NCBI RefSeq assembly: GCF_900199375.1
Contig: NZ_LT900217.1
Location: 1,674,001-1,738,000, forward strand
Origin: Gordonibacter urolithinfaciens
GTDB lineage: Bacteria > Actinomycetota > Coriobacteriia > Coriobacteriales > Eggerthellaceae
Length of the DNA stretch: 64,000 nt
Direction: 5' to 3'
Shown one piece after another: positions 3,183 through 41,206 of this stretch. A model generated the notes under the pieces. It did not search any database and was not told the origin of the DNA. It worked only from the letters and a program-made list of their open reading frames with translations. Made by a program: the position numbers and the translations under genes. Within the stretch, counting starts at the first letter, position 1. The number at the start of each line of letters is the position of its first letter.

Positions 3183-3587
3183 ATGGGCATGTTCTCGTTC
3201 AGCAGCAAGAAGAAGCGCAAGTACGGCCAGGGCGGCAGCACCCAGTACCAGCAGAAGGGCTTCCTGTCCGGTCTGGGCTTCGGCTCGTTCAGCAGCTCCG
3301 ACCGTCGCAAGGCGGCTTACCGCCAACAGGGGTACGGCCAGCATCCGGCGCAGGTGCAGGCGCACCAGCAGCCTGGCCCGATGGGCGGCATGCCGACGGC
3401 CGTCGCGCCCATGGCCGCCCCCGCCGCCGGCACGGCTTGCGCGCAGTGCGGCACGGCCATCCCGGCCGGGTCCAAATTCTGCCTCCAGTGCGGTGCGAAG
3501 GTGAACCAGGGCGGTTTCTGCGCCTCGTGCGGATCGCAACTGCCGCCGGGCGCGAAGTTCTGTCCCTCCTGCGGCATGCCGCGGTAG
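3183..3587 (+). CDS. Double zinc-ribbon protein
   Basis: A 134-residue protein. The start at 3183 is chosen because the coding pattern (MGMFSFSSKKKRKYGQGG) begins there; the frame is open further upstream but runs through the clpB terminator. The N-terminal half is basic and rich in Gly, Gln and Ser. The C-terminal half holds two consecutive zinc ribbons: CAQCGTAIPAGSKFCLQCG and CASCGSQLPPGAKFCPSCG. Such tandem ribbons usually serve as structural zinc modules. The next gene, 25 bp downstream, is kinase-like, and the two may be co-transcribed. No enzymatic function can be assigned. Confidence 0.8.
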   Translation: MGMFSFSSKKKRKYGQGGSTQYQQKGFLSGLGFGSFSSSDRRKAAYRQQGYGQHPAQVQAHQQPGPMGGMPTAVAPMAAPAAGTACAQCGTAIPAGSKFCLQCGAKVNQGGFCASCGSQLPPGAKFCPSCGMPR

Positions 3588-3612
3588 CGCCGCGCGCGCC
3601 GGGAGGCCTCCC

Positions 3613-4380
3613 GTGTCCCGCGTTGCCGAGCACCTCGTGGCGTTGCCGTACCGGCGCTTCTGCGGGCGCACGGTGCAGGGCTACCGCATAGGAAGGCTGA
3701 CGGGCATCGGCGGCTCGGGCGCCGTGTTCGACGCCGTCGGTCCCGGCGGCGCCCCGGCGGCGCTGAAGCTCCTGCGTCCCCTTCGCCCTGCCTACGACCT
3801 CGCCTCCGTGTGGCGCGAGGTGGCGCCGCTCTCCCGCGTTGACCATCCAGCCGTGCCGGCGTGGCGCGGCATCGTGCGCGCAGGATGCGCCTACTTCATC
3901 GTGCTTGAGCGCATGCCGGGCGACTCGCTCGCCACCTGGCTGTTCGAACGACACCATGCGTTCGGAGCCGTAGAAGTCGCGGGCATGGGCGCGCAACTGG
4001 CCGACGCGCTCATCGCCCTCCACGAGGCCGGCGCGGCTCACGGCGACCTGCGCCCGGCAAACATCCTGTACGATGGAGAGCGGGTCTCGCTCGTCGACTT
4101 CGGTCTTAGCCGGCTCGTGGAGGAAGGTGCGGAGGCGTTCGCTGCCGCCTGCGCCGCGGACATCGCCGGTTTCGCCGATCTTGTGCTTTACCTGCGGTAC
4201 TCGTCATTCGACTCCTCGCGCCAGGGAGGCTCCTGGCGTGACGAGCTGCCGCTTGCTCCTGATCAGCGGTGCTTTCTCGAGGAGGCGTTCGCCGGTGCGG
4301 ATGCACCGGGCACCGCCCTTTCCGCCCGCGAGGCCCGCGCCCGCTTTCTCGGCGCATTCGCGTCCCGGTGTTTCACGTGA
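3613..4380 (+). CDS. Small protein-kinase-like protein with atypical catalytic loop
   Basis: A 255-residue protein with the outline of a Hanks-type kinase. It has a glycine loop (GIGGSGAVFDA), a lysine in AALKLL, a catalytic loop HGDLRPANIL and the metal motif VDFGLSR. The usual HRDLKPEN loop is altered: Arg becomes Gly, Lys becomes Arg and Glu becomes Ala. The protein is shorter than typical kinases, with a reduced region after DFG. It may be an active atypical kinase or a pseudokinase. No membrane segment or sensor domain is visible. It lies 25 bp after the zinc-ribbon gene. The stop codon (TGA 4378-4380) falls inside a perfect parS palindrome, so the last residues (CFT) are fixed by that DNA site. 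Confidence 0.75.
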   Translation: MSRVAEHLVALPYRRFCGRTVQGYRIGRLTGIGGSGAVFDAVGPGGAPAALKLLRPLRPAYDLASVWREVAPLSRVDHPAVPAWRGIVRAGCAYFIVLERMPGDSLATWLFERHHAFGAVEVAGMGAQLADALIALHEAGAAHGDLRPANILYDGERVSLVDFGLSRLVEEGAEAFAAACAADIAGFADLVLYLRYSSFDSSRQGGSWRDELPLAPDQRCFLEEAFAGADAPGTALSAREARARFLGAFASRCFT

Positions 4381-4389
4381 AACACCGGG
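4364..4389. promoter_or_regulatory. parS centromere site (ParB binding) within a 26-bp perfect palindrome
   Basis: Bases 4369-4384 read TGTTTCACGTGAAACA, identical to the widely conserved bacterial parS consensus bound by ParB (Spo0J). The symmetry extends to a perfect 26-bp palindrome (CCCGG and CCGGG at the ends). The site overlaps the stop codon of the kinase-like gene. A second perfect copy lies at 41184-41199. parS sites cluster near chromosomal origins. Confidence 0.85.
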
Positions 4390-4479
4390 ACGGCTTTCCC
4401 GAGTAGACGAACGAGAAGCGCCGCATCAACGTTTAGCGGTGTTGGCACGTGAGGCGTATCGCGCGCGGGGCTTTTGTAC

Positions 4480-28707: not shown

Positions 28708-28745
28708 GAAAGACCCCGTGTTTCGCATGAAACACGGGGTCTTTC
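28708..28745. terminator. 17-bp stem terminator containing a near-parS sequence
   Basis: The arms 28708-28724 and 28729-28745 pair perfectly around the loop GCAT, and the 3' arm ends in TCTTTC. The central TGTTTCGCATGAAACA (28719-28734) differs from parS at two central positions. It ends the aroK transcript. ParB binding is doubtful but worth testing. Confidence 0.75.
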
Positions 28746-39414: not shown

Positions 39415-40182
39415 ATGGGTGTGGATACTATTTCCCGGCGCGGGTTTCTCGCCGCCGGTGCGGTCGGGGCGATAACCATAGGGGCAGGGGGGTTCGGCGC
39501 GGCGACCAAGCAGGCCGACGCTGCCTTCGTGCGCCCGCCTGGCGTGGAGTCCAACGCGCGGTTGGCGGCGGCGTGCAACCGCTGCCAGCGCTGCCTGCAG
39601 GCATGCCCGTACGGCATCATCACGCCGGTGCCGCTCTCTGGCGGATTCGTGGCCTACGGGACGCCAACGTTGGCGTTCGAGCAGGCCCACTGCGACTTTT
39701 GCATGAAGTGCGTCGAGGCGTGCCCTACCGGCGCGCTGGCGTTCGGCGGTGCGCGCGAGCGCGACCTGGGTGTGGCGGTAGTGGTAAAGGATGCCTGCGT
39801 GGCCTGGGACTGGTCCGGCTGCACCGTGTGCAAGGACGAGTGCCCGGTGGAGGGCGCCATCTCGCTGGACGACCATGATCGGCCGGTAGTGCACGCCGAT
39901 CTTTGCGACGGCTGCGGGAAGTGCGAGACGTCATGCCCGTCTTCGTCGTTGCGTGCCTACAACCCCAGCATCGCAAACAAGGGAATCGTGGTGGTCTCAC
40001 GCGAGAGCGAGGCTGCGCACGCATCGGGCGCGGTGGCCGACGCGGAGCTTACCTCCTTGCGCACAACTGCCGCAGCCGAAGCATTGCCCCCGCATTCGCG
40101 AGGCATGCACCCCGATGGTCCGGACGGTTCCTTGAGGCCGGCTTCAGGAGAGGGGAAGGGGGCCACCCATGAAAACGCGTAG
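39415..40182 (+). CDS. NapG-like Tat-exported ferredoxin
   Basis: A 255-residue protein with a twin-arginine signal (SRRGFLAAGAVGA) and four 4Fe-4S cysteine sets (CNRCQRCLQAC, CDFCMKCVEAC, CTVCKDEC, CDGCGKCETSC). This matches NapG/MauM ferredoxins, which with NapH pass quinol electrons to a periplasmic acceptor. The ATG at 39415 follows GAGAGGGG. The C-terminal 60 residues are low-complexity. Together with the next gene it may form a second electron route into the molybdoenzyme. Confidence 0.88.
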   Translation: MGVDTISRRGFLAAGAVGAITIGAGGFGAATKQADAAFVRPPGVESNARLAAACNRCQRCLQACPYGIITPVPLSGGFVAYGTPTLAFEQAHCDFCMKCVEACPTGALAFGGARERDLGVAVVVKDACVAWDWSGCTVCKDECPVEGAISLDDHDRPVVHADLCDGCGKCETSCPSSSLRAYNPSIANKGIVVVSRESEAAHASGAVADAELTSLRTTAAAEALPPHSRGMHPDGPDGSLRPASGEGKGATHENA

Positions 40183-41164
40183 CAAGGCTCTCCGCATAGT
40201 CGTTGCCACTGCCTTGCTGGTTGCGGCGGTTGGAGCGGCGCATGTTGGCGGGGGCGCGGCAATCGGAACGCTGTGCGTGCTGTGTCCGGTAGGCTTCGCC
40301 CAGATAGCTGCCGCATCGGGCAGCATCCCGTGGCAGTTGCTGCCGGGTGTCCTTGCAGTGCTGCTCATCGTGTTTTTGGTGGGACGGGCGTTTTGCGCCT
40401 GGGCGTGTCCCTCCCAGCTGCTCAAGAACGTCTTCGGCGGCCACGCGCCGCGCGGTCTGCGCGGGCGCAGGGGCGAAGACCGCGCCCCGGCCCCCTCGCA
40501 AGCATCTGAAGAGGCCGGGAAGGCGGCTGGCTGCTCTGCATGCGCCGGGGCAGGGCCCGGCATCAAAACGCAAGGTGCGGTGTTGGCCGTTCTGCTGCTG
40601 GTGTCGTTTGTCGTCAAGTTCCCGGTTTTCTGCCTGCTGTGCCCTATCGGGCTTGTATTCGGCACCTTGTGGGCCTTGAACCGCGTGTTCGTGCTGTTGC
40701 AGCCGGGTTGGGAGCTTGTCGTGTTCCCGCTCATGTTGCTGGCGGAGCTGTTCTTGTTCAAGCGCTGGTGCTCGGCCATCTGTCCTTTGGGCTTCTTCTT
40801 CGGCCTGGTGGGCAAGCTGCGCGCCAGGCTCGGTTTCGGCGTGCGGCCGCAGGCAAGCTGCGCCACCTGCGTTTCAAGCGAGGGATGCCGCACGTGCTCG
40901 ACCGTGTGCCCGGAGAACATCGACGTGGCCCATTCCTCGACAGAGACGCTCGAGTCATGCACGTTCTGCCTCGACTGCGTGGAGAACTGCCCCACGAAGT
41001 CCATCTCCCTCGCGCTCGGCACGCGGAAGCCGGACGCTCCCGTTTCGAACCCTGTCCGAGCCGACGAGCCCGCTTCAGCCCACGAGCCTGCCTCCGTCGG
41101 CGAGATAACCTCCGTCGCTTCGGGCCCTCTCGAAGATTGCGACGACGACCTCGCCGTTCGCTAG
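40169..41164 (+). CDS. NapH-like membrane ferredoxin
   Basis: A 331-residue membrane protein that overlaps the NapG-like gene by 14 bp. It has four or five helices, the paired CxxxCP motifs typical of NapH/CcoG (LCVLCPVGF, CAWACPSQ, CLLCPIGL, CSAICPLGF), and a cytoplasmic ferredoxin domain (CTFCLDCVENCPTKS). An extra Gly/Ala/Glu-rich loop near residues 90-125 and an acidic tail are unusual. It is the last gene of the operon, ending 12 bp before a parS palindrome. Confidence 0.87.
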   Translation: MKTRSKALRIVVATALLVAAVGAAHVGGGAAIGTLCVLCPVGFAQIAAASGSIPWQLLPGVLAVLLIVFLVGRAFCAWACPSQLLKNVFGGHAPRGLRGRRGEDRAPAPSQASEEAGKAAGCSACAGAGPGIKTQGAVLAVLLLVSFVVKFPVFCLLCPIGLVFGTLWALNRVFVLLQPGWELVVFPLMLLAELFLFKRWCSAICPLGFFFGLVGKLRARLGFGVRPQASCATCVSSEGCRTCSTVCPENIDVAHSSTETLESCTFCLDCVENCPTKSISLALGTRKPDAPVSNPVRADEPASAHEPASVGEITSVASGPLEDCDDDLAVR

Positions 41165-41176
41165 CCTGCCCGCACC

Positions 41177-41206
41177 AAGGGAGTGTTTCACGTGAAACAC
41201 TCCCTT
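41177..41206. promoter_or_regulatory. Second parS site within a 30-bp perfect palindrome
   Basis: TGTTTCACGTGAAACA at 41184-41199 is identical to the parS consensus and to the site at 4369-4384. The flanks (AAGGGAG and CTCCCTT) differ from the first copy but extend the symmetry to 30 bp. It lies just after the NapH-like stop. Confidence 0.85.

Follow-up and report, generated by a model that had tools for sequence, protein, structure and literature searches.

Chromosomal ParABS systems of the Streptomyces coelicolor type have a 16-bp palindromic parS, a parS-type ParB encoded near dnaA, and sites that are densest at the origin, all of which are also found in the Gordonibacter urolithinfaciens genome studied here. 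Copies of parS per genome are quoted as 1 to 20 in passages of one review (PMC10197239), with 20–23 at the high end in part of another (PMC7333895), which also raises the question of why parS number varies and why the sites cluster. In Caulobacter, according to passages of PMC5815017, extra parS insertions were progressively rarer between the origin and the middle of the arm, and the terminus was preferred to some degree. Clusters of parS have been used together with GC skew for origin placement in gut genomes, as stated in the same passages that quote copy numbers (PMC10197239). Noc of Bacillus is likewise a ParB-fold protein, and its NBS sites are scattered round the chromosome (described in part of PMC4331003), with two residue positions deciding between parS and NBS binding (in passages of PMC7383237). 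In Pseudomonas aeruginosa, ParB has targets beyond the origin cluster in the form of half-parS heptamers, GTTTCAC/GTTCCAC (excerpts of PMC10419367 and PMC7022226).

The G. urolithinfaciens genome shares the wide scatter of sites with the Noc system, but its scattered sites are built on the parS core, and its ParB differs from Noc at the deciding positions (R and G in place of Q and R) and scores below the Noc cut-off. It shares putative targets beyond the origin with P. aeruginosa, but these are complete 16-mers, flanked on one side by conserved bases. Unlike the usual ParABS clusters, it has copies almost opposite dnaA and a second class of site with an asymmetric extension. Among the matches listed in the PMC literature, none described parS arrays from Eggerthellaceae, and the passages of PMC4255298 that mention parS and Eggerthella hold nothing on such arrays there.

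The parS Site at a Gene End

The window is a stretch of 64,000 bases (G000:C1:1674001-1738000) of the genome of G. urolithinfaciens (G000), a single contig of 3,294,868 bases. Its features of interest are, in window coordinates:

3613 to 4380, forward strand: protein-kinase-like gene of 255 amino acids with C-terminus SRCFT before the stop (Pfam Pkinase, E 3.5e-20)
4378 to 4380, forward strand: TGA stop codon of the kinase-like gene, in frame inside the parS core, likewise in Gordonibacter pamelaeae
4369 to 4384, no strand: parS 16-mer core TGTTTCACGTGAAACA, exact, 0 mismatches
4361 to 4392, no strand: maximal perfect palindrome of 32 bp, with arms CGTCCCGG/CCGGGACG flanking the core
28719 to 28734, no strand: parS-like copy with 2 mismatches and centre GCAT for ACGT
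41184 to 41199, no strand: second exact parS 16-mer, within a 30-bp perfect palindrome at 41177 to 41206

The sequence-only reading had described the 16-mer as identical to the parS consensus, and the bases at 4369–4384 are exactly that 16-bp chromosomal consensus. Allowing up to three mismatches to parS, the window holds three matches, where shuffled sequences average 0.03, and the 151-bp context of the site gave no match when compared with plasmids. The 26-bp palindrome that had been reported at 4364–4389 is indeed perfect, but it is not maximal, as pairing continues to 4361–4392 with 16 bases on each side. It was also correctly read as taking in the stop of the kinase-like gene, since the TGA lies within the core in the frame of the open reading frame at 3613–4380. 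This arises from the palindrome itself: on either strand its first frame closes with TGA, and a site in either orientation can therefore end a gene. This, along with the preference of the G. urolithinfaciens copies for intergenic and gene-end positions, accounts for a parS at the end of a gene. Only four of the 51 exact copies in this genome lie wholly within called genes. The remaining 47 include 21 that overlap a stop codon or lie no more than 60 bp past one, compared with 15.7 (sd 2.2) for random positions in the same gaps (p ~0.015), where gene ends were taken from a purpose-built gene caller and the genes of the origin stretch were set by hand from the list of open reading frames. The placement at a coding end, which had been singled out as notable, is therefore only mildly so, gene ends being a favoured place for these copies.

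Two further copies in the window went unmentioned in the sequence-only reading. The second exact copy at 41184–41199 lies 19 bp beyond a gene with a 4Fe-4S domain (40169–41164). The copy at 28719–28734 is found within a long intact hairpin bordered by A and T runs, which suggests a terminator rather than a functional parS.

Copy Number, Distribution and ParB

With the position of dnaA taken as the origin, the dnaA domain lies at 1,637,710–1,638,189, the parB domain at 1,645,437–1,645,970 and the site at 1,678,369, that is, 40 kb from dnaA and ~32 kb from parB. Fourteen exact parS copies fall within a 16-kb segment that also contains dnaA, yidC, rsmG, a ParA-like gene and parB, and the gene adjoining dnaA is presumably dnaN, as named from its translation. 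A parS-specific ParB is encoded near dnaA beside a ParA gene, the latter assigned from matches below curated cut-offs. In an alignment, and in a comparison of five genomes, the ParB helix-turn-helix has R and G at the equivalents of positions 173 and 201; the NBS-type residues Q173 and R201 are absent from the G. urolithinfaciens ParB, and the printed helix-turn-helix stretch is identical among G000, G066 and G067. Ranked by E-value, the Noc model TIGR04285 comes first among the NCBIfam matches of this ParB, though its 246.1 bits fall short of the curated cut-off of 315. The parS-type residues and the retention of the site by G. pamelaeae join the exact sequence in backing the earlier identification as parS.

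The genome holds 51 exact copies, or 66 with up to two mismatches, and a reversed control pattern gave no matches in it. An even scatter of the 16-mer round the chromosome, which the sequence-only reading had taken as evidence against its call, is not what was found: the 10% of the chromosome surrounding dnaA holds 28 of the 51 (KS p = 2e-14), and 19 lie within 50 kb of the gene. By distance from dnaA, 40 of the exact copies fall below 500 kb, one between 500 kb and 1 Mb, and 10 beyond, a distribution similar in shape to that of the Caulobacter insertions; six lie more than 1.4 Mb away, almost opposite dnaA. The earlier suggestion that the region is origin-proximal holds, as the window spans 36–100 kb from dnaA, but drawing it from one 16-mer was weak, with 11 of the 51 copies more than 500 kb away. 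A single 16-mer is a poor origin marker in Eggerthellaceae.

This abundance extends through the family. At least one exact copy was present in 125 of 138 genomes, and 28 had 20–148 copies (10 of them at least 100), compared with a median of 3 in the other 110. The five genomes of the genus Gordonibacter have 25 to 79 exact copies, and G053, taken as the Eggerthella lenta type strain, has 130. The 51 copies of G. urolithinfaciens, and the up to 148 of its relatives, stand against the 1 to 20 and 20–23 quoted in the passages cited above for ParABS clusters.

ParB matches at E 1e-10 in the 28 high-copy genomes numbered exactly one in 15 and two or more in 11, with none in G061 and G132, which are 56% and 77% complete. 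A second ParB as the binder was rejected as a candidate on the ground of the 15 genomes with exactly one match. A weaker second ParB-like protein in G. urolithinfaciens (27.4 bits) was not counted under the E 1e-10 limit. As a separate observation, L059:100-1909 (G000:C1:795599-797408) and L017 carry a second ParA/ParB pair of plasmid type, with a DnaA-like ATPase ~17 kb off, which suggests an integrated element.

Two Classes of Site

The copies far from dnaA have a consensus of approximately CCGAA-parS-TYYGTTCG, with the extension on one side. With a 50-kb border between near and distal copies that was chosen after seeing the copy list, 24 of the 32 distal exact copies (23 on one side, one on both) and none of the 19 nearer ones carry GTTC at positions 4–7 outside the core (Fisher p = 5e-8). 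This test covers the 51 exact copies, leaving out the 13 with one or two mismatches, and two of the 66 were not fetched. The site at 4369–4384 is of the unextended, origin-near class. In stretches of 15–20 kb holding dnaA or parB from six other genomes, GTTC occurred at one of 56 copies, which lies ~14 kb from dnaA in E. lenta. Across the family the extension was found in 32 of 138 genomes: all 28 with at least 20 copies, and four of the 110 others.

A logo of 30 loci (28 distinct sites) in genome G052 reads CCGAA-parS-TTCGTTCG, with conservation limited to ~5 bases left and 8 bases right of the core. The sites of G052 and G020 were picked by their GTTC pattern and so are uninformative on the frequency of GTTC there. 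All but one of the 28 distinct G052 sites lie outside called genes. Origin enrichment of the extended sites was not significant in G020 (p = 0.25) and weak in G052 (p = 0.013), while the G. urolithinfaciens copies beyond 50 kb are still enriched toward the origin (KS p = 6e-5).

No bias of orientation with replichore or transcription was visible by eye (53 forward and 44 reverse in G052), and outer stems did not distinguish the classes, with a mean folding z of −1.4 at 40 distal and −1.8 at 20 near sites. Of 84 genes listed beside sites, the 70 that flank distal sites, including sites with one or two mismatches, were scanned, and no Pfam family matched more than four, TetR_N being the top among the best 25 of 148 families, and a regulon operator was rejected as a candidate for this reason. 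Catalase, FeoA, rubrerythrin-domain and encapsulin genes are among these flanking genes, and there may be a redox theme. The extended motif was also seen in three stretches of viral contigs.

Seven pairs were found in which the copies, some of them mismatched, are 48–49 bp apart and have a common inner sequence of approximately TTTGTTC..TATCGCAnnACATTGCGACAA:

L070:3541-3604
L077:3437-3500
L092
L111
L188
L197
L179:15814-15877

By their flanks these pairs represent some five distinct places across three genera, and two of the pairs seem to mark one shared place in separate genera (G000 with G020, and G000 with G052). In G020, the extended copies at L185, L186 and L190 have in common either ~100 bp of flank or a far-side TGTCCATGATG, as though they belonged to a longer repeat, with flank identity between copies of 89% over 99 bp and 84% over 98 bp. 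A dispersed repeat of ~80–110 bases at L077:2063-2180 (G000:C1:1873062-1873179) has many copies in all five genus genomes.

Conservation and Turnover Within the Genus

The only named relative found to have the kinase gene is Gordonibacter pamelaeae 7-10-1-b, treated here as equal to G067. It retains 16 of 16 core bases and the stop within parS, while the outer arms of the palindrome are partly broken and the sequence just past the inner arms differs between the two species. In G066 and G068 both the kinase gene and parS are missing at the locus, and in G065 no parS was found in the pieces read, which cover the locus apart from the middle of the ~10 kb that separates its two ends. The site at 4369–4384 therefore appears to be dispensable. 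Between clpB and the TrkH gene, G066 and G068 lack the equivalent of window positions 3183–4380, comprising the kinase-like gene and a small upstream gene with a match to a 4-Cys prefix domain, as if the two genes were gained or lost together.

Four sites outside the window, from two stretches, were compared within the genus. G067, G066 and G068 all retain the site at L065:3526, extended on the same side as in G000, and its surrounding gap has, for G066 and G068, no blastn alignment to G000, so retention of the motif and its side looks like purifying selection. At L065:13019 the site, again with its extension on the matching side, occurs in G067 and G065 and is missing from G066 and G068. At L077:10933 it occurs in G067, also on the matching side, and is missing from G066, and the site at L077:3485 was found only in G. 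urolithinfaciens among the stretches compared. The side of the extension is thus kept in congeners at three of the four loci, and presence varies at three of the four. Such sequence comparisons suggest that sites turn over and that, where they are kept, they look selected.

Proposed Role and Alternative Explanations

The site at 4369–4384 is, at a probability of roughly 0.85 judged from sequence and context, a working chromosomal parS that ParB binds and from which it spreads. ParB would nucleate on the 16-bp core and, by the mechanism known for its family, would be expected to spread onto the flanking DNA; the site would help to mark and segregate the origin region as one member of an unusually large parS array spanning genera. 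Taken alone, the site is best read as an ordinary parS close to the origin, as the sequence-only reading had correctly recognised. The distal extended copies are probably ParB targets as well, because they have the same 16-base core and many high-copy genomes have only one clear ParB. A single function for all copies is not secured, since the two classes differ in their flanks, and that an extra factor reads the extension is speculative.

The palindrome at 4361–4392 could instead be chiefly a terminator or 3′-end hairpin to which ParB binding is irrelevant. RNA from 4355–4405 folds into a strong hairpin (−28.4 kcal/mol, z −5.25), and the palindrome has the GC-rich hairpin of an intrinsic terminator at the very end of a gene. 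Perfect arms of at least 14 occur at nine of the 51 exact copies (five of 19 near copies, including this one, and four of 32 distal ones) where ~0.01 would be expected from the core alone. A T run follows closely behind some copies by eye (the exact copy at 2133425 and the one with one mismatch at 1461891), and the copy at 28719 keeps its hairpin with the parS centre lost. Neisseria places DNA uptake sequences in terminator hairpins, which are similar to this site as short repeated recognition sequences doubling as gene-end hairpins; here, however, the motif is parS and arms of at least 14 are confined to the nine copies. Directly 3′ of the hairpin there is no T tract, GCTTTCCC coming next, and no terminator-like site was called at the palindrome. 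A hairpin at the end of the kinase mRNA that lacks a T tract leaves a terminator role unsupported, and as the main role of the palindrome it was rejected. In G. pamelaeae, moreover, it is the core that is retained in full and the outer arms that are partly broken, and this explanation is very improbable.

It is somewhat unlikely that only the origin-near copies, including that at 4369–4384, are true parS and that the distal extended copies are operators of another protein or parts of dispersed repeats. The sharp division of GTTC between near and distal copies, the confinement of the extension largely to high-copy genomes, the pairs with conserved inner sequence at about five places, and the absent or weak origin enrichment in G020 and G052 would all fit this. 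However, the distal core is parS over its 16 bases, so that ParB should bind regardless; the distal copies of G. urolithinfaciens remain enriched toward the origin, their flanking genes have no Pfam family in common beyond four of 70, and their orientation has no visible bias. If the high copy number had come instead from a mobile element carrying parS, with the copies as passengers, the ~100-bp common flanks in G020 and the variable presence among congeners would be expected. Conservation in G052 is nevertheless limited to the few bases beside the core, and at L065:3526 the motif and its side are kept in four genus genomes despite the unalignable gap in two of them, making a passenger origin improbable.

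Implications

What a specialist would find surprising is the expansion of parS across genera together with an asymmetric distal class. Origin placement by parS clusters needs care in Eggerthellaceae. With 130 copies in a culturable gut species and a range of 25–79 within one genus, the questions of parS number and clustering are testable by ChIP-seq and Hi-C. A tentative possibility is that in a group of Eggerthellaceae genera, including Eggerthella, ParB has a genome-wide array of 20–148 full sites, plain ones at the origin for segregation and extended ones scattered out to the region opposite dnaA, the latter read with a putative TYYGTTCG partner. If this were true, ParB would organise the whole chromosome or act in occlusion, with no Noc-type paralogue involved.
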